Assembly: GCA_021797355.1 (NCBI GenBank)
Contig: JAJZZX010000001.1
Coordinates: 1 to 64,000, forward strand
DNA: 64,000 nt
Reading direction: 5' to 3'
From: Thermoplasmata archaeon
GTDB lineage: Archaea; Thermoplasmatota; Thermoplasmata; Thermoplasmatales; Thermoplasmataceae
Made by a program: the position numbers and the translations under genes. The notes under the pieces are model-generated. The model was not told the DNA's origin. It worked only from the letters and a program-made list of their open reading frames with translations, and made no database searches. The number at the start of each line of letters is the position of its first letter. Within the stretch, counting starts at the first letter, position 1. Shown piece after piece: positions 46,932 through 62,359 of the stretch.

Positions 46932-48128
46932 ATGTCAGGAAAGATCAAAAACATAGAAATTCTGGAACTTGGGGAAAAGGGCAGGGAAATATCTTCACCT
47001 TGGAGCTCCACAATTCTTCTCGTGAAGCTGACAAGTGATGATGGCCTCGTTGGTTTCGGAGAGGCTCCGACCACGCTCATGACCCTTCCGGTAAAGGAGA
47101 GCATGAGCGAGGTGAAGAGGGTTTTTCAGGATGCCAATTTTTTTAATGTAGAAAGGAACATAAAGGAGTTCTACAGACACTCATTTTATCTATCAAAATC
47201 CATGGAGGCAACATCTGCACTAAGTGCATTCGAGATAGCGAGCTGGGACCTGATTGGCAAAGCCCTGGGAACCCCAGTTTACAAGCTGATTGGAGGCGAA
47301 TTCAGCGAGGAACTGAGGGCGTATGCAAACGGATGGTATTCCGATTGCGTTACCCCTGAAGATTTTGTAAAGAAGGCGAAACAGGCAAGATCAAAGGGCT
47401 TTGATGCATTCAAGTTCGATCCGTTTGGTGACAATTATGATAAACTCTCGAAAGAAGGGCTGAAAAATGCAGTTGACATTGTTTCTGCAATGAGGGAAGA
47501 ATTCGGGGATTCAGTAGATTTGCTGATTGAGTGCCACGGGCGTTTCTCTACCAGAGCCGCCATAGACGCGGGCACAGCCCTGGATGAATTCAATCCGCTA
47601 TTTATGGAGGAACCCGTGCATCCAGAGCTTGAAGTTGGGCTGGCTGAGGTGAAAAGGTACGTAAGGACGCCAATAGCCCTTGGCGAAAGATTGCTTAATA
47701 AGACAGATTTTGCCAGATACATATCAGAAGGATTGGTTGACGTAATACAGCCTGATCTAACTAATTCCCTTGGGATATTGGAAAACAAGAAAACAGCAGC
47801 AATAGCAGAATCATTTGGAGTTCCGGTGGCCTTCCACAATGCGTTTGGTCCAATACAGACTGCTGCAACGCTCAATGTCGACAAGACTCTTCCCAACTTC
47901 CTTATCCAGGAAAGTTTCGAAGCGTTCTGGCCCGACTGGAAGCGAAATCTTGTCAGCACGGGGTATAAGCTAGAAAACGGTAAATTTACGCTATCTGGAA
48001 AACCGGGGCTTGGAATAGAGGTCAATGAAAAAATACTTGAAAGCAACAGGGTTGAGGGTATGGAGCCTTTCGATCCGGTTGAGCCACCATGGGTGGTTTC
48101 CGGCACATACAGGCATTCGAAGAGATAA
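46932..48128 (+). CDS. Enolase-superfamily sugar-acid dehydratase, gluconate dehydratase-like
   Basis: 398 residues. The capping domain has TILLVKLTSDDGLVGFGEAP; the barrel has AFKFDPFG with the Lys-x-Asp region, LIECHGRF, FMEEPVHPE, GERLL and AFHNAFGPI, i.e. the Asp/Glu/Glu metal site and the catalytic His. This fits the D-gluconate/D-galactonate dehydratase branch used in the non-phosphorylated Entner-Doudoroff path of Thermoplasmatales. Exact sugar acid not provable by eye. The KaiC-like gene follows after 3 bases. Confidence 0.85.
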   Translation: MSGKIKNIEILELGEKGREISSPWSSTILLVKLTSDDGLVGFGEAPTTLMTLPVKESMSEVKRVFQDANFFNVERNIKEFYRHSFYLSKSMEATSALSAFEIASWDLIGKALGTPVYKLIGGEFSEELRAYANGWYSDCVTPEDFVKKAKQARSKGFDAFKFDPFGDNYDKLSKEGLKNAVDIVSAMREEFGDSVDLLIECHGRFSTRAAIDAGTALDEFNPLFMEEPVHPELEVGLAEVKRYVRTPIALGERLLNKTDFARYISEGLVDVIQPDLTNSLGILENKKTAAIAESFGVPVAFHNAFGPIQTAATLNVDKTLPNFLIQESFEAFWPDWKRNLVSTGYKLENGKFTLSGKPGLGIEVNEKILESNRVEGMEPFDPVEPPWVVSGTYRHSKR

Positions 48129-48131
48129 AGG

Positions 48132-49037
48132 ATGAGCCAGGGTGAAATGGAGGAAAATCAGCAGAGCCTAAAAGACCTAATAAGCCTGCGTTCCAAACTT
48201 ATTGATCAGATTAGCCAATCTGCAAAACTGTTGGAGGAGGTGGAGAGGTCAATTTCTGCTATAAAGCCAACGGAAATCATGGTAACCCCGAGCGTTGTCA
48301 AAAGTGATGTGAATCACGCTAAGATCAAAACTGGTGTGGAGAAACTTGATCAGCTTCTAATTGGAGGTTATCCTCCCGGCTCCAATATCACCCTGAATGG
48401 CCCCCCATTCAGTTCAAAGGAGAGATTTGTCGCTGATTTCATAAGGGAATCGCTTTCTGAACACTTTCCAACAATCATAGTAGCAGTGGATCGGGAACCG
48501 GCCGCCATAAAGAATCTTGTTCAATCTCCGGATCTGGTCAGGGAAAGCCAAGAAAAGGGCATCCTCAAAGTTGTGGATGCATATTCAAGATTTGTGCAGT
48601 CTGACCCATCAGATCCGTTGGCTGTAGTCATTGACGGAACATCAAATCTTAGTAATTTTCTCAAAAGCATTGACACAATCTGTGCTTCGACAATAAGGGA
48701 GATGGGAACGTATCGAATGGTGGTTTTTTCACTTACAGGCCTACTCACCCAGACTGATGAAAAGAGCTTCATAAAGGCAATACAGCACTTTTCCCAGAGG
48801 AGGAAGGCGGAAGGTGCCACAACTATATATATGCTGGAATCCGGGCTATTTGAGAGGCGAATATATGAAAACATCAACTATTTTATGGACATCTCTCTGG
48901 ACTTCAGGCTTGACGATCTCAATGAATATCTCAGGGTTAGGGGCCTTAATGAGGTTCGGACAAAAGAATGGGTTGAGGTCATCACTACCGGAGGGAAGCT
49001 GGATCTTGGATCCTTTGATCTGAGAAGGATACGTTGA
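48132..49037 (+). CDS. KaiC-like RecA-fold protein with altered Walker A
   Basis: 301 residues. An N-terminal coiled coil (about residues 10-45) precedes a RecA-like domain beginning KTGVEKLDQLLIGGYPPGS. The P-loop position reads NGPPFSSKERF, lacking the G-K-T/S end, so ATP binding may be lost. The Walker B-like strand is LAVVIDGTS, and GTYRMVVFSLTGLL follows. The C terminus matches the KaiC/RAD55 family (LDDLNEYLRVRGLNE). It follows the dehydratase by 3 bases. Role, regulatory or motility-related, unknown. Confidence 0.75.
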   Translation: MSQGEMEENQQSLKDLISLRSKLIDQISQSAKLLEEVERSISAIKPTEIMVTPSVVKSDVNHAKIKTGVEKLDQLLIGGYPPGSNITLNGPPFSSKERFVADFIRESLSEHFPTIIVAVDREPAAIKNLVQSPDLVRESQEKGILKVVDAYSRFVQSDPSDPLAVVIDGTSNLSNFLKSIDTICASTIREMGTYRMVVFSLTGLLTQTDEKSFIKAIQHFSQRRKAEGATTIYMLESGLFERRIYENINYFMDISLDFRLDDLNEYLRVRGLNEVRTKEWVEVITTGGKLDLGSFDLRRIR

Positions 49038-49155: not shown

Positions 49156-49311
49156 ATGTGCAATGTGTATGAAGATCTATCGCAGTATGTTGAAGAGGCC
49201 ATAAAAAGGCATTTCATGAGGATTAAAGTGTGGGAAGATGGGATCCATATTGCACAAAAACGTGGAGTTAAGGATTTATTTTTCAGTAAAGCAGCACAGC
49301 CAGTATTATGA
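49156..49311 (+). CDS. Possible 51-residue peptide, weak
   Basis: ATG at 49156 gives 51 codons (MCNVYEDLSQYVEEAIKRHF, then MRIKVWEDGIHIAQKRG) before TGA at 49309-49311. It has a plausible amphipathic helix but overlaps the end of the opposing NuoN-like gene by 29 bases, and no promoter is placed well. Kept only because the 245-base gap is otherwise empty. Confidence 0.2.
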   Translation: MCNVYEDLSQYVEEAIKRHFMRIKVWEDGIHIAQKRGVKDLFFSKAAQPVL

Positions 49312-51052
49312 CCACCATGAACGCCACTATCATGTACACCATGTACCATGCTATGGAGCTGTTCATGAATTTCCTTGTTGCTATCATGCACATTCTCATG
49401 TAACCTCTTCCAACGGAGTTCATTGCGAACCAGAAGACATCTATTACGGAAACAGGCTGGTTGTCATTTCCAATTCTGGTTCTGAGCAACCTGCGCAGCA
49501 TGAGCCTTATGTTGTTGGCATAGGCAAATGAAGTATACTCGCTGGAGACTGATCTGCCGCTGTTCCATACTTCCGCTGTCCTGGTCTTTGGTTTCCTGAA
49601 AACGGAATAGGCTGCAAGCGAGAATACTGTTATGAGCGCTATGACATAGTCCGGTGACAGCAACCCGAAATCCGCAGCGGAAAACCTGGATTCTATGGTG
49701 AACCCGTTGAATACAAGCACAGACGGTATGCCACCCCTGAATACTTCTGGAACCAGCAGCACAGAAATGACAAAAAGTAACAGTAGTGTGGCTCCCACAC
49801 TGAATACAGTCACTGTCTCAATCCTGCTGGCATGTCCCTTACTGGCCCGGAATAGTGCTGAAAATGACAGTATCTTCATCATGGCGCCAGTTGCCATACC
49901 TTCCGAAATTGCAATAACAGACCCCACTATTATTGATATGATACCAATGTATCCGCCAAGATACGCCTGCATGAAGAAGGATTCAAGAAGCATCCATACT
50001 GCAAGCCCCCCAATGGTGGGAAACAATCCGGACAGGGACATGGTTGAAAGCAGGGTTCCCAAACGCATCCACCTGTCCTCCGGTGCCCTGGCCTCCCCAA
50101 AATACTCACCTCTGGTGCTTCCAATGGAAAGGAAAAGTCCAGTCTTTGACACAGCATGGGACAGTGCGAAGATGATTATGGTAACCAGTACAAACTCACG
50201 AAGGATGCTGTTCCCGGATACAAGGTAGAGACCGAAGGCTGCAAGAATGGCGGCCTGGTTCTCTATGGTGCTGAAGCCCCCGAGCATCTTCATGTTCTCA
50301 GATATGTAGGCATAGATGGATGCAAACAGGATTGAGATGCTTCCTATGATCAGGAAGAGGACTCCTATGTAAACCAGTGCAGGACCTGCTGCACTCAGGA
50401 ATATCATCCTGGTTATGAGGAAGACCCCCATGAGCGTCATTGTTGCACTGAATACGGCCGATGCATTTGCAGGAGCATTCCCATGGGCTATTGGGAGCCA
50501 CTCACTGATCATGAATGGTGACATGCCCATCTTTATGATTGCGCCGAATGAAATGAGAAGGAGCGGGACAAATGTGGTTAAATGGATGAAGCCGAAGGAG
50601 GAATTCCCTGAGGCCACGAATGATGACACTGCACCGGCAATGATCAGGGCGGTGCTGAATTCACTGAATGTCATGAATGTGAATGCCGGTCCCTTCTGCG
50701 ACCTGTTCAGGGCAACTATGGCATATGAGGGCACAGACATTATCTCCCAGCTAGCTATAAGTGCAAGATAATTGTTTGACACCAGTATGATGGACATTCC
50801 CAGAACTGTGAGTGACATCAGTGAAGCCAGCCATCTGCCGTACTTCTCCCCATAAGATAATGAATAGATTCCGGCAAATACCCAGACAATTCCAGCTATG
50901 ACGGAGTAATAGGAAAGATAATCCCCGTACACAAATTGCGTGGCAGCGAATACAATCGATGAAGAAGACAGCATGAGGTACGAGGCTTTCCTGTTGAATA
51001 TCCCTAGGAGGGCTGCAATACCGAATAGCACAGGCCCAAGGTAAGGAAGCAT
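49283..51052 (-). CDS. Proton-translocating antiporter-like subunit (HyfB/NuoL/N family)
   Basis: About 589 residues with some 15 membrane helices. NNYLALIASWEIMSVPSYAIVAL, IIKMGMSPFMISEWLPIAHGNAPANASAVFSA and TLMGVFLITR match the Mrp/NuoL proton-channel block with its Lys and His. An ATG also exists at 51079, but AGGAGGT stands about 10 bases before ATG 51052, so this start is preferred. Last gene of the six-gene complex. Pumps ions coupled to electron flow in the soluble arm. Confidence 0.85.
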   Translation of the reverse strand: MLPYLGPVLFGIAALLGIFNRKASYLMLSSSSIVFAATQFVYGDYLSYYSVIAGIVWVFAGIYSLSYGEKYGRWLASLMSLTVLGMSIILVSNNYLALIASWEIMSVPSYAIVALNRSQKGPAFTFMTFSEFSTALIIAGAVSSFVASGNSSFGFIHLTTFVPLLLISFGAIIKMGMSPFMISEWLPIAHGNAPANASAVFSATMTLMGVFLITRMIFLSAAGPALVYIGVLFLIIGSISILFASIYAYISENMKMLGGFSTIENQAAILAAFGLYLVSGNSILREFVLVTIIIFALSHAVSKTGLFLSIGSTRGEYFGEARAPEDRWMRLGTLLSTMSLSGLFPTIGGLAVWMLLESFFMQAYLGGYIGIISIIVGSVIAISEGMATGAMMKILSFSALFRASKGHASRIETVTVFSVGATLLLLFVISVLLVPEVFRGGIPSVLVFNGFTIESRFSAADFGLLSPDYVIALITVFSLAAYSVFRKPKTRTAEVWNSGRSVSSEYTSFAYANNIRLMLRRLLRTRIGNDNQPVSVIDVFWFAMNSVGRGYMRMCMIATRKFMNSSIAWYMVYMIVAFMVVIILAVLLY

Positions 51053-51054
51053 TT

Positions 51055-51723
51055 TCAGCGTACCTCCTCGCTTCTCCATCCAGAATCCGTGTGGCTGTTG
51101 ATGCCACCTCTTGCAGCGTTGAGAGCAGCCAGCACTGTGTAAGGGGATGGAGGGCAGCCGGCAATTTCCACATGGTATTTCTCCCTGTCCAGCGGGGCAT
51201 CCCCAACAATGCCGCCCGTTACTGCACAGGCTCCGAGGGCTATCACAAGCCTGGGTTCTGGCATTGCCTCATAGGCCCTGTCCAGCGCCTCCTTCATTCC
51301 AGGCGTCATAACCCCCATTATGACAATTGCATCTGCATGCCGCGGCGTGTTCACCATGAATATGCCAAGCCGATTTGCATCATACTGTGGGGAAAATATG
51401 CTGAGAAATTCCATGTTGCAAGAACCGCAGGCACCAGAATCCAAGGGGAAGACATGAAAGGACTTCCTGAAAGCTGTCTCAGCCTTCTTCACTGTGAATA
51501 TGTCCTGTTCTCCAGTTGGCTGGTAATCTGGCAGGCATCTGCGGCAGAATATGCATTTCTCAATGATCCAACCATCCGATGTTATTGCATCAACGGGACA
51601 GTTGCCTGCATCACTTCCGGAAAGGCGTGACGGCCACTGCGGCGCAGCAGCTGGATCAGCGGAAGGATACCTTTCGGTCTTTATCCCCTTTCTCAAGCCA
51701 TTGAGGAACCATATGCTGCTCAC
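51055..51723 (-). CDS. NuoB/HyfI-like small subunit with ferredoxin-type N terminus
   Basis: 222 residues. The first 60 carry CIFCRRC and a lone NCPVDAI, a partial ferredoxin domain for about one cluster. The rest is the NuoB fold: GACGSCNMEF, ALGACAVTGG and IAGCPPSPYTVL supply the four Cys of the proximal [4Fe-4S] cluster. This combines the HyfH- and HyfI-like parts in one chain. Its start overlaps the large-subunit stop, and its stop is 2 bases before the antiporter ATG. Confidence 0.85.
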   Translation of the reverse strand: MSSIWFLNGLRKGIKTERYPSADPAAAPQWPSRLSGSDAGNCPVDAITSDGWIIEKCIFCRRCLPDYQPTGEQDIFTVKKAETAFRKSFHVFPLDSGACGSCNMEFLSIFSPQYDANRLGIFMVNTPRHADAIVIMGVMTPGMKEALDRAYEAMPEPRLVIALGACAVTGGIVGDAPLDREKYHVEIAGCPPSPYTVLAALNAARGGINSHTDSGWRSEEVR

Positions 51724-52826
51724 TGCATCACCACCGCAAGTTCAGATATCCAGATGCCAAAGCTCTCCCAGTTGAAGTGGTAATCAGTGAAGATATTGCC
51801 TGCCATGGATTTCCTGAAGGCATCAATATTCAGCAGCGATGGAGAGGACATCTGAATATCATCAATCCTGCCGTCACTGATTTTGACGTAGTAGAACAGA
51901 TCCCCCTGCGGGCTCTCAATCCTGGCTGCACCTTCACCATTCATTCCAGCAGTATCAACCTCCGTGGAATTTTCGTTGTTATCCAAGGCCTCCAAGATCA
52001 TGTCAGCGGAAGCAAGTATCTCTTGGCTTCTCACATAAAATCTCCCGAATGCGTCGGGCTCATCGAATATGACGGGCCTGAAGCCAAGTTTCCTGTATGG
52101 GATCAGTTTTTCGTCCAGCCTCGCATCCACTTTCATGCCAGAAGCCCTTGCCGCTGGTCCAAGCAGGCTGCCTTCACTGATGTTTCCATTGTTCTGCAGC
52201 CGGTTCAGGAATATCTTAGACTGCAGCAGAGCATCGAAAATCTCCTGGAATTCTTTCCTTACGCCACCGATTCGGGTTTCGATCCCTGATTTGCTGATCT
52301 GGCAGCCCCCCACGGATGAAGCTGAAAAGAAATATCTGTGTCCCGAAAGTCGCGATATGATCCTTGCCACATTCTCCCTGAGGTATGCAATCTGGTTCTG
52401 TGGAACGCCAAAACCGGCAGGTTCACAAACACGTTTCACAACCTCCAGGTTGCTTCTAATCCTCTCAAGTTCAAGCATTATGAGTCTTGAATATTGAACT
52501 TCCTCAGGCACGTCTATATCCAGTGCATCCTCCACTGCCATCTCGAATGCCACAGCGTTTGAGGCTGCATGAAATCCGTTGATACGCTCCACCATCAGGA
52601 GGGCATCCCTCGGTGTGAGGCCCTTCACTTTCAGTCTCCTGGTCTTCACGTAGGGGTCAACCTCAATGTGCTTGATGACTTCGCCAGGGGTATGCATGTT
52701 AAAGGCCACAGATTCCATAAGGCCTCCAGTTGCTGGGCCGTATGCAAAGGTTAACTCTCCTGGGAGGTTCTGGTATGTTTCTGCAGGCATCTCATGCTTC
52801 TGTTCTGATATGACCTTTTCATACAC
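51720..52826 (-). CDS. NuoD/HyfG-like large subunit lacking Ni-Fe cysteines (Ehr type)
   Basis: The fold is that of the [NiFe] large subunit and NuoD: FAYGPATGGL, VERINGFHAASNAVAFEMAVEDAL, ERIRSNLEVV, GVPQNQIAYLRENV and the end FTDYHFNWESFGIWISELA. At the two places where hydrogenases have C-x2-C, this protein has ERINGFH and WESFGIW, with no Cys. It therefore cannot hold the Ni-Fe site. The frame reaches a TTG at 52916 inside the previous gene; GTG 52826 is preferred, with ATG 52790 as an alternative. Confidence 0.85.
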   Translation of the reverse strand: MYEKVISEQKHEMPAETYQNLPGELTFAYGPATGGLMESVAFNMHTPGEVIKHIEVDPYVKTRRLKVKGLTPRDALLMVERINGFHAASNAVAFEMAVEDALDIDVPEEVQYSRLIMLELERIRSNLEVVKRVCEPAGFGVPQNQIAYLRENVARIISRLSGHRYFFSASSVGGCQISKSGIETRIGGVRKEFQEIFDALLQSKIFLNRLQNNGNISEGSLLGPAARASGMKVDARLDEKLIPYRKLGFRPVIFDEPDAFGRFYVRSQEILASADMILEALDNNENSTEVDTAGMNGEGAARIESPQGDLFYYVKISDGRIDDIQMSSPSLLNIDAFRKSMAGNIFTDYHFNWESFGIWISELAVVMQ

Positions 52827-52875
52827 TGAATACTTTTCTGTATTCCCCAGGAATCTGCCCTGGGGATTACCGAAC

Positions 52876-54219
52876 CTATAATATCTCAATGTACACCACC
52901 AGATAGAAAATTCCAATGAAAAGCGGCAAGATAGCAGAAAGCACGGAAAGTGCCGGCATGAGCCGGTCCCTCTCCACGTTGGGCTGGTTTCCGCTGAATA
53001 TCATACCGGTCACGTTATAGTTCATTGATATGAAGGCAGCGGCCAGGGATATGATCACTATTATGAACTGCGCATACATGTGAAGCGAGAGTATATCGGC
53101 AAGGATCAGGAACTCACCAAAGAATGTCCCGAAGGGTGGTGCACCTGTAACAGCCAGCGACGACATCAGCAGGGAAGCGGATGTGTAAGGCATTGAAGTG
53201 CCCATCCCGCTGATCTCTGCAATTTTCTTCTTTCCCGTGAATCTGAGCACATTTCCTGATGAATAGAAAGCCCCTGCCTTTCCGAAGCTGTGAGAAAGCA
53301 GTAGCAGCAAGGCTCCGGTAATTCCAAGCGGTCCGCCGGCAGCAATCCCGAGAAGTGCAAGATTCATGTTCTCCATCGTTGAATACGCGAACATCCTCTT
53401 GTACCTGACCTGGTAACCCAGGAATATTGACGCAGCCACTATGGATAAGACGGCAAACCAGACATACAGGTCCCTCACCGGCTCGATTTCGTATACTCTG
53501 TAAAGCACGTAGAGTGCTGTTGGTAGCAGTACCCCCGAGAACATGGCACTCACAGGGGATGGTGCCTCGCTGTGTGCATCCGGAAGCCATGTATGGACAG
53601 GGAAGACGCCAACTTTCGTGCCGAATCCTATGAGTGCCAACGAAACAGCAAGGACCATTATCCTGGAATGCACATGTGAGGCTATGGCAGCTGAAACGGA
53701 AAGAGTGCCCAGAATATAATATATGAGAATTATCGAGATGAAGGCAAAAGTGACTCCTGCTGAAACTATCACTATATATCGCCACGTTGCCTCAAGGGAA
53801 GTTTCTGTTTTCTCCGTGATTAGGAGGAGAGCGGATGAGATTGTGGTGGCCTCTATGCCAACCCACATCAGTCCATAGTTGTTTACCTCCAGTGAGAAAA
53901 GCATTGAAACAGTGAAGAGGTTAAGGAGAAGGTAGTAGGTCGGTTCGCTGATGCCCATAACCTCCACACCCTTCAGGTATCTCGTGGAATATACTGTTGA
54001 CAGTAGATATACTGCCAGAACCATCACTATGAAGACCATGGTGGAATTCTGGATAAAGAAAAAACCCACCTGAGGGCGGATGAAATACATTATGCCCGCA
54101 ATGGCCAGATCAACTGAGCCCCCAATGATGGAAGCCTGCTTTATGCCAGTGCGGTACAGGATGCCGGCAGCTCCCGGTATCAGTATGATAAGCACTGCAA
54201 GTAACTGGCCAAGAATCAT
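52876..54219 (-). CDS. Proton-translocating antiporter-like subunit (HyfF/NuoN family)
   Basis: 447 residues, about 13 membrane helices. GLMWVGIEATTISSALLL, LIGFGTKVGVFPVHTWLPDAHSEAPSPVSAMFSGVLLPTA carries the key Lys and His, and STMENMNLALLGIAAGG and HSFGKAGAFYSSGNVLRFTG follow. Typical of hydrogenase-4/complex I antiporter subunits. The ATG overlaps the HyfE-like gene by 4 bases. Confidence 0.88.
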   Translation of the reverse strand: MILGQLLAVLIILIPGAAGILYRTGIKQASIIGGSVDLAIAGIMYFIRPQVGFFFIQNSTMVFIVMVLAVYLLSTVYSTRYLKGVEVMGISEPTYYLLLNLFTVSMLFSLEVNNYGLMWVGIEATTISSALLLITEKTETSLEATWRYIVIVSAGVTFAFISIILIYYILGTLSVSAAIASHVHSRIMVLAVSLALIGFGTKVGVFPVHTWLPDAHSEAPSPVSAMFSGVLLPTALYVLYRVYEIEPVRDLYVWFAVLSIVAASIFLGYQVRYKRMFAYSTMENMNLALLGIAAGGPLGITGALLLLLSHSFGKAGAFYSSGNVLRFTGKKKIAEISGMGTSMPYTSASLLMSSLAVTGAPPFGTFFGEFLILADILSLHMYAQFIIVIISLAAAFISMNYNVTGMIFSGNQPNVERDRLMPALSVLSAILPLFIGIFYLVVYIEIL

Positions 54220-54869
54220 CCCCTCAGCTCCTCCACCGGCTCGTGGGTGAATTTCTCCAGTACAACTATTGATGATATGACAACAAGGGCAAGCACATCA
54301 AGGAACACGCTGGCCTCAATTATGATGGGTATGGGAAGAAGAAACATTGCAAAGAGAACCAGGGAATTCTCCTCTTCAACGTAGCCTATTATCTGTGTGA
54401 ATGTTGTCCTGCGCGAGGCTATGAGAAAGAGCCCCTGGAAGAAGAGTGTGAGTGGGAAAACAAGCACAGCGGAATTCCCAGAATTTCCGAGGAACGAATG
54501 CAGGACTATTCCGGAGAATGCTATGGAGTATATTATGAACACAGATATTACGATGAATATGAGGTCAAGCAGGAACAGGTATGAGAGGCTCACCTTCCTC
54601 TCATATAGGTAAACCTTCTCCTTCGGTATTCTTTTCTGGAGGAAGTAATTGACCAGAAAAGCCCTGAGGACTATTATGAGCGCACCCAGGATGAAGAAAT
54701 CATAGGATCTCTCCTGCCAGCCTATTATGAACGCAACAACTGCTATGAGCACTGACTGGACGGACTGCCCCCTTATCATTGAAACGATGAATTCCTGGCC
54801 TTGGATGTAAAATGCTGAAATCGCAATCAGGCTGGAGATAAGGTAAACCACAGTGTCGACGCTGTTCAT
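54216..54869 (-). CDS. HyfE/NuoK-like membrane subunit
   Basis: 217 residues with six or seven hydrophobic helices. The N-terminal half (IGWQERSYDFFILGALIIVLRAFLVNYFLQ) and VEEENSLVLFAMFLLPIPIIIEASVFLDVLALVV match HyfE, the fused NuoK-type subunit with an intramembrane Glu. Overlaps its neighbours on both sides by 4 bases, showing strict co-translation. Confidence 0.8.
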   Translation of the reverse strand: MNSVDTVVYLISSLIAISAFYIQGQEFIVSMIRGQSVQSVLIAVVAFIIGWQERSYDFFILGALIIVLRAFLVNYFLQKRIPKEKVYLYERKVSLSYLFLLDLIFIVISVFIIYSIAFSGIVLHSFLGNSGNSAVLVFPLTLFFQGLFLIASRRTTFTQIIGYVEEENSLVLFAMFLLPIPIIIEASVFLDVLALVVISSIVVLEKFTHEPVEELRG

Positions 54870-55810
54870 GGTATCACCTCAGCAAAGATGAGGAAAAGTA
54901 TGGAAAAGGTGAATGCAGTGGCAAGATAGTCCAAGACCCTGAAGAGCCTCAGCTTTGCCAGCGTTGTTTCCACCACAAGGACAATCAGTATGAGGAGAAC
55001 CCATTTTGCAATCATGACCGGAATGTCAAGCAGGAAGTACGGTGATGAGGAGAACAGTCCCCATGGCAGAAGGAAAACATTCAGGAGGACGGAACCCAGC
55101 AGGTATTGCTTGATGTAAGATGACCACCTGTTTATGGCCAGGAGCTTGCCACTGTATTCGTAATTCAGCCCCTCATCTATCATTCCAAGCTCCTGCACAC
55201 CCGGGCTTTCCAGTGGTATCTTCCCAGTTTCGTAGAAGAAGAGCATGAAGAATGCCAGTGTTGAGAATATATGTGCAAGGGACAGATTCTCAAGGGAATG
55301 GGATACAAGGAACGCATTTGTTGTATACGGGTTATTTGTTGCAGTCAGGAGTGACACGGCAATGAAAACCGTTATGAGAGTGCCTTCCGAGAGGAAATTG
55401 AATGACATGGATCTGGAGACGCCAAGGGCCACATAATTGCTCCCGGAGTTCATGGCTGCAGCGGTCTTGAGGAACGCTGCAAGTGAGAAAAGTATGGCAC
55501 CGCTGAGAAAATCACCGGAGGCAGTGAAATATATGGGTACGGGAACAAGTACGGGTATTATGAGTGCAATCAGAGAATAAATGCCGAAGATGACATAGGG
55601 AATATATTTGAAGAATACGCCTGAACCCGCAGGAATTATTGTAACTTTCCGGAAAAGTTTCCAGAGATCATAGTATGGCTGGAATATACTGGGACCCTGT
55701 CTTGATTCAACCATGCCCTTGAGCTTAGCAAGTATCCCCGCGTATAACGGTGCACTGAGAACAACAAAGAAGTACTGCGTTAAGGTCTCTGCCAGTGTGA
55801 TCATGTCCAT
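54866..55810 (-). CDS. NuoH/HyfC-like membrane anchor subunit
   Basis: 314 residues, about eight membrane helices. KLKGMVESRQGPSIFQPYYDLWKLFRK is the NuoH/HyfC signature for the loop that holds quinone in complex I, and ETGKIPLESPGVQELGMIDEGLNYEYSG the acidic loop. It anchors the soluble arm to the antiporters. First gene of the six-gene operon; on the minus strand an AT-rich TATA-like stretch lies about 100 bases upstream (55905-55922). Confidence 0.9.
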   Translation of the reverse strand: MDMITLAETLTQYFFVVLSAPLYAGILAKLKGMVESRQGPSIFQPYYDLWKLFRKVTIIPAGSGVFFKYIPYVIFGIYSLIALIIPVLVPVPIYFTASGDFLSGAILFSLAAFLKTAAAMNSGSNYVALGVSRSMSFNFLSEGTLITVFIAVSLLTATNNPYTTNAFLVSHSLENLSLAHIFSTLAFFMLFFYETGKIPLESPGVQELGMIDEGLNYEYSGKLLAINRWSSYIKQYLLGSVLLNVFLLPWGLFSSSPYFLLDIPVMIAKWVLLILIVLVVETTLAKLRLFRVLDYLATAFTFSILFLIFAEVIP

Positions 55811-56193: not shown

Positions 56194-56266
56194 GGGGCTG
56201 TGGGGTAGCTTGGTATCCTACGGGCTTTGGGAGCCTGAGACTCCGGTCCAAATCCGGGCAGCCCCA
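56194..56266 (+). tRNA. tRNA-Pro (anticodon TGG)
   Basis: Acceptor stem GGGGCTG pairs with CAGCCCC, with discriminator A at 56266. The anticodon stem is CGGGC/GCCTG around the loop TTTGGGA, anticodon TGG. The T stem is TCCGG/CCGGG. No intron. CCA is not encoded. A TATA-like AAATTTTTAT stands about 30 bases upstream. Its 3' half from 56218 on is also the end of the integrase gene, marking an attachment site. Confidence 0.9.
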
Positions 56267-57198
56267 TGTGATCGAGGTCCGGATTCATCCATTTGCACGG
56301 ATTCGGTCATTTTCTGACTTCCCTGAAATATCTCCCCAATGCGGGATCTGACCACCTCCGCAACTTCCTGCTGTGACACATGTGTGTATCTCTGTGTTGT
56401 CCTCAGCGACCGGTGGCCGAGATGGATTTGGACCATGCGTATGTCCATTGGTTTTGCTCCCCGGTAGCCCTTCAGCAGGGCCGTGGCACACCAGTGCCTC
56501 GCCGCATGCCAGTGGAACTTCTTTATCCCGGTGAAAGCCCCGATCCTTTTGGCCAGATTCCGTACATAGTCATAGGTCATCCTTCCCCTTGGCGTTGTGA
56601 AAAGTGCGGTTGGATCTGAATTGGGCCTGTAGTCCTCTATGTATTTCCTCACATCTGCAAGTATCTCGTCGGGCAGGCCTATGATCCTTTCTGCTTCTCC
56701 CTTCTCCGATCTTATTCTTATTCCATGATCCATGACATCGTTCACGTTGATCTGCACTATCTCACCAACCCTGGCACCTCCAAAGAATGCAATGTATGCG
56801 ATGATGGAGTTCCTCAGGTTGACCTCCCTCCTCCTGCTGAGTTTCGATGCGGCGTTGAGGAGGGCCATTGCCTCCTCATCCGAAGGTATCCATGGATCAG
56901 GAACTGGCGGCTCCCTTATCTTGGGCATCTCAATGTTTATGTTAAGGAACCTGAACCATGCCGCCAGATCCTTCCTCTGGTTGTTTATTGTGTGCGGTTT
57001 CACGCCCCTCTCTATCTCGGAGGCAAAGAAGTTCAGGAGTTTCTCCTGGTCAGGATTGAACACGTCCATTATCCTGGAGAAGCTCCTGATCCTCCTGACT
57101 GCCCTCTTTACCGTCGAAGGCCTGTACCTTCCAAGGGTGAGGGCCCATATCCTGAACTCCTGAATCCTTGAATCCAGGGAATCCCTTCCAGGGTTCAT
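56218..57198 (-). CDS. Tyrosine recombinase (integrase)
   Basis: 326 residues. An N-terminal SAM-like core-binding domain (TLGRYRPSTVKRAVRRIRSF) is followed by the catalytic domain with Arg in GGARVGEIVQ, His-x-x-Arg in HWHAARHW, His in HLGHRSL and nucleophile Tyr in TTQRYTHVS. The last 15 or so codons, AARIWTGVSGSQSP, are read from the antisense of the tRNA-Pro gene, so the stop lies in the attachment site. The gene is intact. It is the last of eight genes with 4-base overlaps. Confidence 0.92.
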   Translation of the reverse strand: MNPGRDSLDSRIQEFRIWALTLGRYRPSTVKRAVRRIRSFSRIMDVFNPDQEKLLNFFASEIERGVKPHTINNQRKDLAAWFRFLNINIEMPKIREPPVPDPWIPSDEEAMALLNAASKLSRRREVNLRNSIIAYIAFFGGARVGEIVQINVNDVMDHGIRIRSEKGEAERIIGLPDEILADVRKYIEDYRPNSDPTALFTTPRGRMTYDYVRNLAKRIGAFTGIKKFHWHAARHWCATALLKGYRGAKPMDIRMVQIHLGHRSLRTTQRYTHVSQQEVAEVVRSRIGEIFQGSQKMTESVQMDESGPRSHGAARIWTGVSGSQSP

Positions 57199-57596
57199 TT
57201 GACATCCCTCACGAATGAACGATCCTTTGATTCGTAGCGGTAGCCTGCAATCCTCATGTTCTCCGACAGCCTTTTGAAGTCCTCTGATTCCAGCCTCGAG
57301 GTTATCAGGAATTTATCCTCCGAAACCTTGAGTTTGTATTTTGCGGCCAGGGACTTCAGCAGTGTCATTTTCTTCTCGTCGCTCATTCCTGGCTCATGTT
57401 TCTCGGAGTTTTCCTTGAGCCAGTACACATACGGCGACACGGTCCTGTCAAACATGAGTTCAAGCTTCTGCGGATTTACCGATCCATCCTGGATCTTCAG
57501 GTAGTCCCATATCTCCCTGTATATCGAGCTTAGGTAGTCGTAGTACCTCTTCCTGTCACCGTCAATACCGCTTATTCCAGCCTCTGTTGCAATCAT
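57195..57596 (-). CDS. Element protein, unknown
   Basis: 133 residues, mostly helical, charged, with no Cys or membrane part (IYREIWDYLKIQDGSVNPQKL, SDEKKMTLLKSLAAKYKLKV). No recognised family. It overlaps the integrase start and the zinc-ribbon gene end by 4 bases each. Being the gene just before the integrase, it may act as an accessory excision or DNA-binding factor, which is inference from place only. Confidence 0.6.
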   Translation of the reverse strand: MIATEAGISGIDGDRKRYYDYLSSIYREIWDYLKIQDGSVNPQKLELMFDRTVSPYVYWLKENSEKHEPGMSDEKKMTLLKSLAAKYKLKVSEDKFLITSRLESEDFKRLSENMRIAGYRYESKDRSFVRDVK

Positions 57597-57802
57597 TCAA
57601 TCTCCTCCACTTCCACCTTATTATTGCATGCATAGCACCTCAGAGTGCCGGCGGATCTTGTCCTCCTCTCCCAGGCGTTTCCGCACCTGGGGCATACGAC
57701 AAAGACGCCGGTAGCCCTGGGCCTCATCCTTCTCCTGACGTTTGAGAACTCCATCCTTGCACCCCTTGGCAGCACGAGGTTCCCGTCAGAATCAAATATC
57801 AT
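57593..57802 (-). CDS. Small zinc-ribbon protein of the element
   Basis: 69 residues. VCPRCGNAWERR...LRCYACNNKVEV forms a C-x2-C...C-x2-C ribbon after a basic arm (RRRMRPRATG), as in small transcription factors of archaeal viruses. Overlaps both neighbours by 4 bases. Confidence 0.65.
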   Translation of the reverse strand: MIFDSDGNLVLPRGARMEFSNVRRRMRPRATGVFVVCPRCGNAWERRTRSAGTLRCYACNNKVEVEEIE

Positions 57803-58128
57803 TCCTCAACAATCCTCCTTATCTCCCTCTCAACGGCATTACTTGTGATCCTCCGGAGATCATCGCTCACCCTTTCCTCAAGATCCACGCGGTGCATTCC
57901 GTCCGAATGCCACCTGATCCACATGTCCCTGGTTTCGGACGGGCTCAGGGGCTCGTAGCTGTCCGGAACGTATCCGATCTTACCGGCATGCTTCCCCTTG
58001 AGGTGGGCTATGCGTGTTGCCCTTGCCACCCTCCTTGAGCAGAATATGCATTCCCATCTTGTGTGCCCCTTCTCCCTGACCGGCCTGAAATAATCCCTAG
58101 CGTCTATGTCACAAGATCCTGCCTTCAT
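57799..58128 (-). CDS. C2H2-type zinc-finger protein A
   Basis: 109 residues from ATG 58128. The finger is WECIFCSRRVARATRIAHLKGKH, C-x2-C-x11-H-x4-H. The tail is helical (TRDMWIRWHSDGMHRVDLEERV). The frame extends to 58170, but ATG 58128 gives the same 4-base ATGA overlap seen at every other join of this operon. It shares its plan with the next gene, so the two are probably an old duplication. Confidence 0.65.
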   Translation of the reverse strand: MKAGSCDIDARDYFRPVREKGHTRWECIFCSRRVARATRIAHLKGKHAGKIGYVPDSYEPLSPSETRDMWIRWHSDGMHRVDLEERVSDDLRRITSNAVEREIRRIVEE

Positions 58129-58400
58129 CTCCTCACCTCCGTCCTGTTCCATCCGGATGAGTTGTACCATTCCACAACCTGAAGCCTCATCCTCCTTAGT
58201 TCCGCCCTGCTGTACCTTGTCACCCTGGGTTCTGTTTCAGGCTTCTCAAGGCCGAAAACATCAGGATGCGCCATGGTGAGGTGTGTTGCCCTCCCCCTCT
58301 GGCTCCTTATGATCTTCCTGCAGATTATGCAGACATAGCGGTTCTGATCATCGAGGGTGTAGAAGTCGAGCTTGTTGCACTGGGTTCCCTGGACAATCAT
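58125..58400 (-). CDS. C2H2-type zinc-finger protein B
   Basis: 91 residues. The finger is YVCIICRKIIRSQRGRATHL then TMAH, C-x2-C-x12-H-x4-H, followed by a basic helical tail (RYSRAELRRMRLQVVEWYN). Paralogue-like to protein A, with both carrying one finger and a similar tail with a Trp. DNA binding is likely. Confidence 0.65.
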   Translation of the reverse strand: MIVQGTQCNKLDFYTLDDQNRYVCIICRKIIRSQRGRATHLTMAHPDVFGLEKPETEPRVTRYSRAELRRMRLQVVEWYNSSGWNRTEVRR

Positions 58401-58786
58401 GGGGACGCCTCCAGAATACGAAGCTTTGCTATCCTGTTCTCAACCTTCCACCAGGCAGTCTCGTAGCTGGAATGGGTGCACTTCTGGTATGCCCACCACT
58501 TCCTTCCTGTGGAATCGGAAATACCGCCGGAATGGGGATATCCGTACCATGTGCCCACAGCCTCGACATGGCCATAGGATCCGCCGATGCACTCGAATGA
58601 CTTTCCCGATGTTCTCCCGATGAGATCTTCAATCTCACCGCCCATGTCAGCAGTGAGTATGATCTCATCCTGGAGCCGGTCCTGCTTCTTCTCCTCCCTC
58701 TTAATATGGGAAAGGCATACCGGCCCTATTCCCCTGTCAACGGATTCAGGATCCGTGAGTTCCCTTCCGCAGTTTATGCACCTCAC
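58397..58786 (-). CDS. DUF6011-like phage-type protein
   Basis: 129 residues from a GTG start. MRCINCGRELTDPESVDRGIG followed by PVC is a zinc-binding motif seen in DUF6011 proteins of phages and mobile elements. The second part is rich in Gly, Trp and Tyr (GTWYGYPHSGGISDSTGRKWW) and may be a separate beta domain. Function unknown. GTGA overlap with the gene upstream. Confidence 0.6.
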   Translation of the reverse strand: MRCINCGRELTDPESVDRGIGPVCLSHIKREEKKQDRLQDEIILTADMGGEIEDLIGRTSGKSFECIGGSYGHVEAVGTWYGYPHSGGISDSTGRKWWAYQKCTHSSYETAWWKVENRIAKLRILEASP

Positions 58787-59076
58787 TGCTCTCCCTCCGG
58801 AAGGTCGTCCCAGCAGTTGTAGCAGATGTGCATATTGTTTGGCTTTCCATCATAGGACTTGCCACAGGCTATCCAGTGATCAGTGTCGAAGGGGTTATCG
58901 CATATGCCGCAGTGGTTCAGCACCTCACCGCACATGGGACATTTCAGTTCAATGTGTTCAGGCAGGTTGAAATCTGACCTTGTGAAATCCGGTATGTCAT
59001 CCAGGGGATCATCAGGCTCATACCAGGATGAGGAATGAGTTACAGTGTGGTTATGGCCACTCCATATTGCACTCAT
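58783..59076 (-). CDS. Multi-Cys zinc protein of the element
   Basis: 97 residues. KCPMCGEVLNHCGICDNPF and HICYNCWDDLPEGEQ give three C-x2-C pairs plus His residues (DTDHWIACGKSYDG), enough for two zinc sites. The N terminus is His/Ser-rich. It overlaps the AbrB-like gene stop by 4 bases. Confidence 0.6.
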   Translation of the reverse strand: MSAIWSGHNHTVTHSSSWYEPDDPLDDIPDFTRSDFNLPEHIELKCPMCGEVLNHCGICDNPFDTDHWIACGKSYDGKPNNMHICYNCWDDLPEGEQ

Positions 59077-59249
59077 CTGATCACCCCGTCAGCCCTGAGC
59101 AGCAGTTCGTTTCCCTGAACATAGATCACAATTTTCTGCTTGTCTGCCCACCCAATCTCCTCAGTAACGCTCTTTGGCACCCGTATAATGAGACCGGGAG
59201 ATTTCCTGTCCATGTGGACCCTCGTTGTGGCTATCATTTGATCCTCCAT
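59073..59249 (-). CDS. AbrB/SpoVT-like DNA-binding protein
   Basis: 58 residues from ATG 59249 (ATG 59237 would also work). ATTRVHMDRKSPGLIIRVPK, SVTEEIGWADKQKIVIYVQG and NELLLRAD give the swapped-hairpin beta fold of AbrB-like proteins. First gene of the eight-gene minus-strand operon, and likely its regulator. Its promoter lies among TTTCGTATGAAA repeats. Confidence 0.6.
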   Translation of the reverse strand: MEDQMIATTRVHMDRKSPGLIIRVPKSVTEEIGWADKQKIVIYVQGNELLLRADGVIR

Positions 59250-59258
59250 TTCATCACC

Positions 59259-59315
59259 TTTCGTATGAAACTGTATGAAATCAAACGTATATTAATCTTA
59301 TGATTTCGTATGAAA
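59259..59315. promoter_or_regulatory. Repeated operator TTTCGTATGAAA between two AbrB-like genes
   Basis: The 12-mer TTTCGTATGAAA occurs at 59259-59270 and again at 59304-59315, with a partial copy (GTATGAAATC) at 59273-59282. The unit is close to an inverted repeat (TTTC-GTAT-GAAA). It fills the gap between divergent AbrB-like genes and frames AT-rich promoter DNA. Confidence 0.5.
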
Positions 59316-59353
59316 TTGCCATTTATTATTAACATTCTGTATATTTCACATGA

Positions 59354-59512
59354 ATGGAAAAAAGGGGAACCGGGAGTTTTCACATCGGAACTAGAGGGGA
59401 GGGGATCATCTACGTGTCCAAGCGTCTCCTCAGCGATTTTCCGCTTGCCAGCGGCGATCAGGTCAGGATTACTGTAAAAGAGGATGGAACCATAATTGTG
59501 GAAAAGCTCTGA
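59354..59512 (+). CDS. Second AbrB-like small protein
   Basis: 52 residues: MEKRGTGSFHIGTRGEGIIY, then VSKRLLSDFPLASGDQV and a strand RITVKEDGTIIVEKL. This is the AbrB/MazE swapped-hairpin pattern (basic strand, short helix with SGD, two strands). It is divergent from the other AbrB-like gene across the shared operators, a two-way switch layout. Confidence 0.55.
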   Translation: MEKRGTGSFHIGTRGEGIIYVSKRLLSDFPLASGDQVRITVKEDGTIIVEKL

Positions 59513-59514
59513 AT

Positions 59515-59799
59515 TCACTCCTCCACCTCCACAACCGTGAAGGGAAACTCCCCGTATCTCCTGGTATATTTTTCAAGTAACCGGCTCTGTATCCTTGCCG
59601 AATCCCTGATCAGGGATTCAAGGTAGATGTTGTCCTGGTTCTCCCTTCTGATCTGAAGGAGATAATTCAGTGTGTCATGTATGTCCAGGATCATCTCCAT
59701 GGTCCTGATCTTTCTCTCATACTCCCTTGTCAAAAGTCTTTTTAGCCTGCCCAATATTATTGGATGGTCTCGCAAACCATTCATTTTTTCCGTATTCAT
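59515..59799 (-). CDS. Helical protein paired with an RHH gene
   Basis: 94 residues, long helices with coiled-coil character (LLTREYERKIRTMEMILDIH, RENQDNIYLESLIRD), ending in a short strand. No motif known. Its ATG overlaps the stop of the RHH gene by 4 bases, giving a toxin-antitoxin-like pair of small genes, though no toxic fold is recognisable. Confidence 0.5.
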   Translation of the reverse strand: MNTEKMNGLRDHPIILGRLKRLLTREYERKIRTMEMILDIHDTLNYLLQIRRENQDNIYLESLIRDSARIQSRLLEKYTRRYGEFPFTVVEVEE

Positions 59800-60037: not shown

Positions 60038-60217
60038 ATGCCTAAGCAACCATATGTGAAAACTGTACCTGTGAATCTGAGGCTTCCAGAGGGACTTTAC
60101 GACGAGATCATGAAGATCATGGAGAAAGATAAAAAATGGAACTCACCTCAACAGTTCATACAGGATGCACTGAATGAAAAGATAGATCGATGGATAAGGG
60201 ATCATTCGGTGGGGTGA
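60038..60217 (+). CDS. RHH-like small regulator upstream of tcmP
   Basis: 59 residues. VKTVPVNLRLPEGLYDEIMK is an RHH-type strand and helix, and SPQQFIQDALNEKIDRW the second helix. It ends with TGA at 60215-60217. The TcmP frame overlaps its end: ATG 60190 lies inside it and GTG 60214 makes a GTGA join. The two are thus co-translated, as with antitoxin-like or regulator genes. Confidence 0.6.
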   Translation: MPKQPYVKTVPVNLRLPEGLYDEIMKIMEKDKKWNSPQQFIQDALNEKIDRWIRDHSVG

Positions 60218-61350
60218 TTAATGCGAATGATGATACCGTTTGGGAAATATCGCCGCATACAGCAGCAAAGCATAGTATTTTGAAAAAATATATTCAGGCA
60301 TGGGCCCCAATTCTTGCACAGGGTTCTTATCATCGGAGATTGGTATACATAGATGGTTTCGCTGGACCGGGAGAATACAAAAACGGAGAAGATGGCTCTC
60401 CTATTATTGTATTAAAGGCCATTAAGGAGCACCAGCTCAGAGGTAATTTCAGAAATACTGAATTTGTTAATATCTTCATAGAGAAGAGGGATGACAGGGC
60501 GAAAAACCTTGAAAGAGTGATAAAGGAAAGGGTCGGCACTCTACCCAGTTGGATTAAGTACGAAATCAAGCATTCAGAGTTCAATACAGAAATGAAACAG
60601 ATTTTGAATGAACTTGAATCTGAGGGGAAAAATTTGGCACCCTGTCTGTGTTTTGTTGATCCCTTCGGCTGGAACGATATCGATTATGAAATACTTTCAA
60701 ATATTATGAAGTATGAGAAGGCAGAACTTTTAATTACATTTATGGCAGGTTACTTGGAACGTTTCGTTTGGGACCCTATCCACATTTCATCAATCAAGCG
60801 ACTTTATTCTGACGAGCAGATACAAAAAATCAGAGAAAGCAGTAATGAAGAAAACCTTGTTACAAAATATTTCTTAGAAAATCTTACTGAAAACATCAGA
60901 AAATTAGGAATAAAGGACCGGCTTTTTAACATCTCGTTTGCGACTTATAATAATCACAATAGGCTAGAATATTATCTTATTTATCTTACCAAAAGCTGCA
61001 AGGGCCTGGAGGTCATGAAATCGGCCATGTTTTTCTCAGCGAAAGACGGTTCTTATAAGTTCAGTGACTTCGACTTCGATCCAGCTCAGAAGACACTTAT
61101 TGATTATGGGCAGGAATCAGACTGGGTAATAGGGGCTTCAGAAGAAATTTACCAGTTACTCTTAACTCGATTTGGGAAAGGAAGAAGTATACCAATCCCT
61201 ACCGTGAAAAGCATAGTAAAATGCGAATCCAAGTGGATGTTTAAAAATGATATCCTTGCGGAAATGGAGGATTCAAAGAGAATAAACGTATTCGTTGATA
61301 AAAGAAGAAAAAGGACTTTCCCAGACAGAGGTTACATCACGCTAAATTGA
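60190..61350 (+). CDS. tcmP: Three-Cys-motif partner protein TcmP
   Basis: 386 residues from ATG 60190; GTG 60214 is an alternative. WEISPHTAAKHSILKKYIQAW, VYIDGFAGPGEYKNGEDGSP, a CFVDPFGWNDIDYE segment and LLITFMAGYLERF define TcmP. The DGFAGPG and DPFG blocks look like motifs I and IV of a class I SAM methyltransferase, so RNA or DNA modification is possible. TcmP genes usually lie next to a three-Cys radical SAM-like partner; here the neighbour facing it tail to tail is a radical SAM gene. Confidence 0.85.
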   Translation: MDKGSFGGVINANDDTVWEISPHTAAKHSILKKYIQAWAPILAQGSYHRRLVYIDGFAGPGEYKNGEDGSPIIVLKAIKEHQLRGNFRNTEFVNIFIEKRDDRAKNLERVIKERVGTLPSWIKYEIKHSEFNTEMKQILNELESEGKNLAPCLCFVDPFGWNDIDYEILSNIMKYEKAELLITFMAGYLERFVWDPIHISSIKRLYSDEQIQKIRESSNEENLVTKYFLENLTENIRKLGIKDRLFNISFATYNNHNRLEYYLIYLTKSCKGLEVMKSAMFFSAKDGSYKFSDFDFDPAQKTLIDYGQESDWVIGASEEIYQLLLTRFGKGRSIPIPTVKSIVKCESKWMFKNDILAEMEDSKRINVFVDKRRKRTFPDRGYITLN

Positions 61351-62359
61351 TTCTTTTATGCTCTTTCCACCATCTCCCTGTCATACCGTATTTTAGTAGC
61401 AGTGCGTGGAATTTCTTCTCTATTGCTGCATCAAAGTTCTCAAGAAATATGGGCTCTCCCAGTGCAACCTCCAATTCCTTGATGTTTGATCCCCTGGTAT
61501 GCAGAGATTCCCCGTAAATGAAGTCCGGCTTTATGTCGGAAATGCTCCTTACAATTGCATCCATATCAGCCGACACTGAAGGCCTTATTTTCAAAGGCGG
61601 CATAACAGGCGCGATGATGATACCAGCCCTGAGCCCAAGCCTCTTTGCTTCTCTTATTATATCTATCCTTGCCTCAGGAGTTGCCACCCGAGGTTCCATA
61701 ATCCTTGAAAGTTCGTGATTCATTGTGGCCACCGAGACCTGTATCCTTACCAAGTCAGGGTATCTGGTGAATATATCAAAGTCCCTTTTGACTAGCGGAG
61801 ATCTCGTCTGAATGCATAGCCTCACCCCGTTCTCAAGAGCTTTCGTTATGATTTTCCTGGTAACTGAAGCCAGCTGAGGCAGGTATGGATCATGAGTTGA
61901 TGACATCATGACCTCTATACCCTTCCAGCGTTTCCAGTTGGTCTTTTCAATCGCTTCGTCAATGTTCTCAGGGGAATAGAAGTAATTTCCCCAGGCCCTA
62001 TTGACGAGGGGACCGGTTCTTCTGGTGCCGTACCTCTTGTTAATGTTATCAACGTAGCAGAATCTGCAGGCATGTGTGCATCCAACCGCATAATTCAGTG
62101 CCCAGCCATCGGACAGTTCCTTTCCAACCCCGCCCTTCTCAATCCAGGTGAGCTTGGAAGGCTTGATCAGGGGCGGGTTTATCCGGTATGTGCCAAATGC
62201 TACCTTTCTCATGTCAGGATCGAACAGATAATCATCGACGCTTTCAGTTTCAGACTTTATTTTCTCAATCTTCAGCCTGCGCATTGTTTCCCAGGCCTTC
62301 AGAGCAGCCATCCTGTGTTTTTCTTTCTCAGGATCTGCAGTCTGGTTTATACTTATCAT
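61337..62359 (-). CDS. Radical SAM protein, SPL-like/three-Cys partner of TcmP
   Basis: 340 residues. The cluster-binding motif is CTHACRFCY (C-x3-C-x2-C) after LNYAVG, followed by a TIM-type barrel (IEVMMSSTHDPYLP, RLCIQTRSPLVKRD, RIQVSVATMNHELSRIMEP, AGIIIAPVMPPL). This matches the spore-photoproduct-lyase-like radical SAM group often seen with mobile elements. It overlaps the tcmP end by 14 bases tail to tail, not an operon but a close pair. Substrate unknown; nucleic acid repair or modification is inference. Confidence 0.8.
   Translation of the reverse strand: MISINQTADPEKEKHRMAALKAWETMRRLKIEKIKSETESVDDYLFDPDMRKVAFGTYRINPPLIKPSKLTWIEKGGVGKELSDGWALNYAVGCTHACRFCYVDNINKRYGTRRTGPLVNRAWGNYFYSPENIDEAIEKTNWKRWKGIEVMMSSTHDPYLPQLASVTRKIITKALENGVRLCIQTRSPLVKRDFDIFTRYPDLVRIQVSVATMNHELSRIMEPRVATPEARIDIIREAKRLGLRAGIIIAPVMPPLKIRPSVSADMDAIVRSISDIKPDFIYGESLHTRGSNIKELEVALGEPIFLENFDAAIEKKFHALLLKYGMTGRWWKEHKRINLA

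Follow-up and report, generated by a model that had tools for sequence, protein, structure and literature searches.

The DNA analysed here (hereafter the window) is a 64,000-nucleotide stretch from a Thermoplasmata archaeon (contig JAJZZX010000001.1, positions 1 to 64,000), whose family is an acidophile family. Between 49283 and 55810, it carries six minus-strand genes that encode a complete energy-converting hydrogenase-related (Ehr) complex, descended from group 4a-type hydrogenases. Judged by its sequence, the complex cannot be a [NiFe] hydrogenase, because the ligand cysteines are missing from the large subunit and HypD is missing from the genome. Our best reading, to which we give a probability of about 0.5, is that it may act as a proton-pumping ferredoxin:menaquinone oxidoreductase with two [4Fe-4S] clusters.

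The genes run from 55810 down to 49283, mostly overlapping by a few bases in the window's list of open reading frames (ORFs), in the 5'->3' order HyfC/NuoH-like, HyfE-like, HyfF-like, large subunit, small subunit, and HyfB-like. We assigned the subunit families using Pfam and NCBIfam profiles, and five of the assignments were firm while that of the HyfE-like subunit was weak. The original prediction had proposed a six-gene Ehr-type complex at this position, and all six ORFs were found there with matches to the expected families. The Ehr assignment is supported by a group 4-like large subunit without the four NiFe cysteines, a small subunit with the proximal-cluster site, the NuoH-like and antiporter-like genes alongside, and a phylogenetic place with the group 4 hydrogenases, outside Nuo/Fpo. 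Two findings had been named that would speak against it, a second large-subunit gene with cysteines elsewhere and a strong grouping with Fpo/Nuo; neither appeared, as described below.

The better-known relatives differ from the complex in specific ways. Relative to the group 4 [NiFe] hydrogenases, residues N/H and W/E replace the C-x2-C motifs, and the Hyp maturation protein HypD is absent. Compared with complex I and Fpo, which share the fold, the complex keeps the hydrogenase C-x2-C proximal site instead of CC and retains the hydrogenase residue E59, has M58 and G105 at the positions of the quinone-site His and Tyr, lacks a separate NuoC, and has NuoI reduced to a fused domain. In E. coli formate hydrogenlyase-2 (Hyf) and -1 (Hyc), the comparison is closer: the B, C, E, F, large, and small subunits all have Hyf counterparts, although the NiFe site, HyfA, HyfD, HyfJ, and a separate HyfH are lacking. 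Pyrococcus furiosus MBH (6cfw) was the best PDB sequence match for both the large and small subunits, and relative to MBH the complex has lost the NiFe site and has no separate two-cluster ferredoxin subunit.

Marreiros et al. 2013, cited in PMC6349859, PMC10284858, and PMC10432482, stands at the origin of the Ehr class, whose function the latter two papers still call unknown. Like other Ehr complexes, the one in the window combines group 4 hydrogenase-like large and small subunits with antiporter subunits and has no NiFe ligands. It thus adds a member to an already described kind and is ordinary as a family member. For acid-mine Thermoplasmatales, Yelton et al. 2013 (PMC3750248) describe putative group 4 hydrogenases with neither Ni-binding motif, for which a different function is considered possible, and note a "hydrogenase 4" cluster in Ferroplasma acidarmanus Fer1, Eplasma, and Gplasma. 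The large subunit of the F. acidarmanus Fer1 locus (L103, also G052) is 49% identical to that of the window. Similarly, PMC5473848 lists F. acidiphilum FAD_0579-0584 as six Mrp/hydrogenase-type subunit genes, which we take to be the same six genes. Searches of the literature collection covered here for experimental work on this archaeal clade found none.

Replacement of the NiFe site

The large subunit (Ehr; a HyfG/HycE/NuoD homologue; 51720..52889, 389 aa) matched PF00346/PF00374 (Complex1_49kDa/NiFeSe_Hases). We place its start at the TTG codon at 52889 instead of at 52916, because relatives carry stop codons just upstream of that point. Recoding in the large subunits of these relatives was considered and rejected, since every one of their internal stops falls shortly before the true start.

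In an alignment with HycE, HyfG, MBH, and genuine group 4 hydrogenases from the same class, the four Ni-ligand positions are occupied by N104, H107, W380, and E383. The former L1 C-x2-C reads N104-G-F-H107 (52569..52580) and the former L2 C-x2-C reads W380-I-S-E383 (51741..51752). The alignment bears out the earlier claim that both C-x2-C sites are replaced. Of the two labels given to the replaced sites, ERINGFH was correct for L1, while WESFGIW was shifted for L2: it ends at the first L2 cysteine position (W380), and the true motif, W-I-S-E, reaches just past it.

We counted residues in 93 Ehr sequences overall, 62 of which belong to clade A, the clade of the window's complex. Within clade A, N104 and W380 are each present in 60/62 sequences and H107 in 49/62. 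The ligand positions vary across Ehr (N/A at 104, H/F at 107, W/S/V at 380), and only 3 of the 93 sequences have any cysteine at these four positions; the window's large subunit has none. Position 383 is acidic in 93/93 and likewise acidic in NuoD (E in the genome's own copy, D in E. coli), and E59, the glutamate common to hydrogenases at that place, is retained in 92/93. An Ehr signature, E375-S-F-G378 (51756..51767), has G378 in 93/93 and E375 in 90/93, with Asp in 2; in hydrogenases and NuoD, the first of these positions holds a small residue and the last holds Asp. Because the substituted residues are kept across the Ehr and clade A sequences, we regard the NiFe site as replaced and held constant rather than decaying, with replacements that do not amount to an unvarying set of metal ligands. 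The ESFG signature and the acid conserved where the last cysteine stood are possibly unreported, as far as the available portions of the cited papers go.

A substitute metal site formed by N104, H107, W380, and E383 was also considered. It is unlikely, as Phe takes the place of H107 in Sulfolobales and Micrarchaeota, and it is further disfavoured by the variation of N104 and W380 outside clade A. Judging the former NiFe pocket from the alignment only, the variable ligand positions together with the always-acidic position 383 therefore fit a small-molecule pocket better than another metal.

The best PDB sequence match of the large subunit was MbhL of MBH, and its best structural match was HycE of E. 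coli formate hydrogenlyase (FHL). An AlphaFold2 model based on the family alignment (predicted local distance difference test, pLDDT, 91) matched HycE best, followed by complex I 49-kDa subunits and MBH. A tree of 47 sequences agreed, joining the Ehr group to E. coli HycE/HyfG (98/93), its closest reference relatives, and then to MBH, with Nuo/Fpo-like NuoD outside. Forcing Ehr together with Nuo lowered the likelihood by 13.3 (approximately unbiased test, P = 0.066, which is no formal rejection), and this grouping is disfavoured. The strong grouping with Fpo/Nuo was thus absent from the tree. As to the phylogeny with Ehr, Fpo, Mbx, and Hyf that the original prediction had proposed as a check, the Hyf side was covered and gave the HycE/HyfG neighbours, but the tree contained no MBX/MBS sequences. 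Its bacterial Ehr sequences were limited to two Bacteroidales metagenome-assembled genomes (MAGs), and since an FpoD bait returned no class member over the cut-off, its outer references are Nuo/Fpo-like NuoD.

The strong overall similarity to MBH and FHL might suggest a true hydrogenase with cysteines that escaped a correct reading or are located elsewhere. However, the absence of cysteines at the four positions leaves next to no chance of this. In addition, searches accompanied by positive controls, which matched, found no HypD at E <= 1 in the genome (95.6% complete) and none over the cut-off in 61 family genomes. Nor did PF00374/PF00346 detect a second hydrogenase-type large subunit in the genome, where the only other hit was the canonical NuoD at 466 kb of contig C4. 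We consider the true hydrogenase refuted by the sequence.

Two predicted clusters and a membrane arm

The small subunit (a HyfI/NuoB homologue; 51055..51723, 222 aa; PF01058, Oxidored_q6, E 9e-24) carries a fused N-terminal ferredoxin domain. Its proximal-cluster cysteines, C99, C102, C166, and C190 (51154..51429), keep the hydrogenase-type C-x2-C spacing, in contrast to the tandem CC motif of complex I found in the NuoB of the same genome. MbhJ and HycG were its top PDB sequence matches, and HycG and MbhJ were also the best matches of its structure model (pLDDT 82). Residues 1-85 (51469..51723) are derived from HycF/HyfH/NuoI (hhalign probability 94.7, E 5.6e-8), and this domain is shortened: ferredoxin motif 1 lacks its first three cysteines and motif 2 lacks its last. 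The remaining C42, C57, C60, and C63 are the set that binds one cluster in 2[4Fe-4S] ferredoxins, giving one [4Fe-4S] site. Its cluster is presumably the equivalent of N6b, which adjoins N2 in complex I. Across 22 small subunits, with identity down to 36%, none of the eight cluster cysteines varies. Because the cysteines for the proximal site and for one fused-domain site are retained and invariant, the complex appears to carry two [4Fe-4S] clusters.

The four proximal cysteines, the ferredoxin-like part fused to the NuoB-like chain, and the lack of a separate NuoC-like gene in the operon had all been recognised in the original prediction, and each proved to be real. The genome's single NuoC lies beside NuoD, in a separate run of nuo-like ORFs (L056). 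The fusion and the missing NuoC had also been called unusual, but neither is peculiar to the window's genome, and every small subunit of the clade that we examined has the fused domain with the one-cluster cysteine set. The archaeal clade does differ from other Ehr complexes, which have a separate HyfH/NuoI protein, and it has no formate dehydrogenase or NuoEF genes alongside. The available text of PMC3750248 and PMC5473848 does not describe the fused one-cluster domain and offers only "some other function" as a mechanism; to the extent of such partial sources, the one-cluster fusion of a ferredoxin domain to the small subunit may be unreported.

Other arrangements occur among related loci. 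A six-gene cluster in genome G033 (L069, 1870-3975) encodes a small subunit without proximal-cluster cysteines (DTGSDNSPEIEL, GDDACDG, GNPP), and its large subunit also lacks the NiFe cysteines; it is a hydrogenase-like complex apparently without a proximal cluster. In two MAGs labelled Bacteroidales (L147, L149), the small subunit has 168 aa, seemingly too short for the fused ferredoxin domain.

The predicted membrane arm of two antiporter subunits plus NuoH- and NuoK-like anchors was confirmed by profile matches. The operon's first gene encodes the HyfC/HycD/NuoH-like subunit (54866..55810, 314 aa; PF00146, E 3e-29), and overlaps by 4 bp the gene for the HyfE-like, NuoK-related subunit (54216..54869, 217 aa; NCBIfam NF008556, hydrogenase 4 membrane subunit, E 1.1e-5). 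The HyfF-like antiporter subunit (52876..54219, 447 aa) scored 670 bits against NF005042 (hydrogenase 4 subunit F; cut-off 437), and the HyfB-like antiporter subunit (49283..51052, ~589 aa) scored 768 bits against NF005046 (hydrogenase 4 subunit B; cut-off 460). Proton_antipo_M was matched by two operon proteins (E 2e-46 and 2e-15). The start of HyfB is probably 51052, although its ORF opens at 51079; a same-genus homologue of 589 aa guided this choice.

Conserved charged residues are present in all four membrane subunits. They include a Glu/Arg/Lys set in the HyfC-like subunit (26 homologues) and E165-E166-E167, E185, and D191 in the HyfE-like subunit. In the HyfF-like subunit, E123, K202, K274, H310, and K314 are invariant or nearly so (27 homologues), and the homologue alignment of the HyfB-like subunit shows E112, E140, K183, K312, and K402 to be invariant. 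The two antiporter-type subunits with their conserved key residues would also suit a proton or cation antiporter whose hydrogenase-like part has no more than a structural role. We think this very improbable, however, as the invariant cluster cysteines favour electron transfer over a purely structural role.

A candidate ferredoxin:menaquinone pump and its alternatives

The ferredoxin:menaquinone reading was chosen because of the two clusters, the lack of an NADH or flavin module and of HypD, and the presence of genes for reduced ferredoxin and menaquinone. The conserved six-gene set in the operons of relatives contains no flavin or NADH module. The genome has four POR_N matches, a likely source of reduced ferredoxin through enzymes of the 2-oxoacid:ferredoxin oxidoreductase type, and two matches of the menaquinone-pathway MqnA/MqnD type, a likely source of quinone. 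According to PMC5473848, ferredoxin enzymes replace the pyruvate and oxoglutarate dehydrogenases in F. acidiphilum.

In the proposed mechanism, the cell's 2-oxoacid:ferredoxin oxidoreductases would supply reduced ferredoxin, whose electrons would pass to the [4Fe-4S] cluster of the fused domain and on to the small subunit's proximal cluster. From there, they would reduce menaquinone bound in the pocket that housed NiFe in the ancestor, and the reaction would drive the HyfC/HyfE junction and the two antiporter subunits, resulting in proton export. We infer the donor (ferredoxin), the acceptor (quinone), the direction, and the proton pumping alike.

Several observations weigh against this mechanism. 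In complex I, the quinone head is, as we understand it, bound by the His and Tyr of Nqo4, which align with M58 and ~G105 here; these positions are not conserved as His/Tyr, the hydrogenase E59 being kept instead, and the pocket would therefore need its own way of binding quinone. The genome's own nuo operon, which has no obvious NuoEFG, could also oxidise ferredoxin. NuoC is present in 32/32 well-assembled family genomes, which indicates that the six-gene complex accompanies Nuo and does not replace it, so its role may differ. The flanks in relatives contain no conserved neighbour gene to back the donor or the acceptor, and the fused domain could dock another protein.

The coexistence with a separate Nuo in the family would be explained if the complex ran in reverse, with quinol oxidation and inward proton flow reducing ferredoxin. 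The large inward gradient of acidophiles could pay for this, and many of the relatives are acidophile genera or nearby MAGs (Ferroplasma, Acidiplasma, Metallosphaera, and Micrarchaeota-binned MAGs). Nonetheless, the genome's 2-oxoacid:ferredoxin-type enzymes already make reduced ferredoxin, leaving little evident need, and there are relatives among Nitrosocosmicus-type Nitrososphaerota and Bacteroidales too. We consider the reverse direction unlikely. We rate a ferredoxin-fed reductase of sulfur compounds or NADP+ just as low. It would follow the same modular scheme as the MBS/MBX of Thermococcales, and 6u8y_L, which we take to be a chain of such a complex, was among the PDB sequence matches of the large subunit (E 7e-11); its score was far below that of MBH, though, and the operons of relatives show no association with a sulfur or NADP enzyme.

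A slightly less probable alternative is that the six genes form the membrane part of a formate-oxidising complex, either a formate dehydrogenase (FDH)-Ehr or one resembling formate hydrogenlyase, an idea put forward for Ferroplasma and some bacteria. The nearest tree neighbours are the formate hydrogenlyase large subunits HycE/HyfG, and PMC6349859 proposes an FDH-Ehr, while PMC3750248 gives a formate hydrogenlyase reading. The genome does contain two molybdopterin oxidoreductases, but both are on contigs other than that of the operon, and the conserved six genes include no HycB/HyfA-type linker. PMC3750248 also reports that the acid-mine relative Gplasma has the cluster without a formate dehydrogenase.

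Extending the ferredoxin:menaquinone reading, we tentatively suggest, as a possibility well short of that reading, that this clade represents a minimal ferredoxin:quinone pump with two clusters, whose descent from a formate-hydrogenlyase-type hydrogenase was independent of that of complex I. HyfH would have been cut down to one cluster and joined to the small subunit, the bridging cysteine would have become an acid as in NuoD, and a quinone site of its own would have arisen around the ESFG loop. If so, this pump would be a second route from a hydrogenase to a respiratory complex. Ehr complexes as a whole figure in discussions of how hydrogenases are linked to respiratory complex I. The archaeal clade is unusually clean, with six genes, no conserved partners, two predicted clusters, and a genome without HypD, and relatives such as F. 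acidarmanus Fer1 are cultivated or completely sequenced. It is therefore a practical system for asking what has taken the place of the NiFe site and whether hydrogenases gave rise to quinone reductases on more than one occasion.

Relatives and flanking DNA

The gene order C-E-F-large-small-B recurs in Thermoplasmata, Nitrososphaerota, Micrarchaeota-binned MAGs, one Sulfolobales genome, and Bacteroidales MAGs, and two Metallosphaera genomes have the same genes arranged F-large-small-B-C-E. Named relatives include F. acidarmanus Fer1 and Acidiplasma aeolicum, and others belong to the Nitrosocosmicus-type Nitrososphaerota. The operon is beyond chance, because its gene order and substituted residues are kept in dozens of genomes. 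We found no conserved partner genes, as the flanks differ between genera. Presence is patchy inside a single genus (g4), where G075 carries the complex but nothing beyond a NuoD-level match appears in G043, G082, G138, and G202; this indicates that the complex is easily gained or lost. Two genomes carry two divergent copies of the six-gene operon each (L052/L053 in G294, L070/L071 in G162). One of the copies in G162 has its large subunit split in two frames, and the large subunit of G148 is also interrupted.

Convergent with the operon are a gluconate/galactonate dehydratase gene and a gene for a KaiC-like ATPase (46932-49037). A locus of the same genus (L036) has ORFs of matching size and order (301 and 398 aa) at this position; other genera do not uniformly do so. 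Directly upstream of the operon, a tRNA-Pro (TGG) is overlapped by the 3' end of an opposite-strand tyrosine integrase gene (56194-57198), and the same tRNA-Pro also stands upstream of the operon in L036. This arrangement resembles one end of an integrated element; the window contains no further copy of the tRNA-Pro 3' end. Past the integrase lies a run of small minus-strand ORFs (57195-59799), several of them rich in paired cysteines, one of which matches phage families of unknown function (phrog_636, E 2e-10). At 60190-62359, a three-Cys-motif partner protein TcmP (TIGR04474, 182 bits; PADLOC candidate family PDC-M30A) is convergent with a radical SAM protein, and the two may form a defence or mobile pair, located within the element or next to it.

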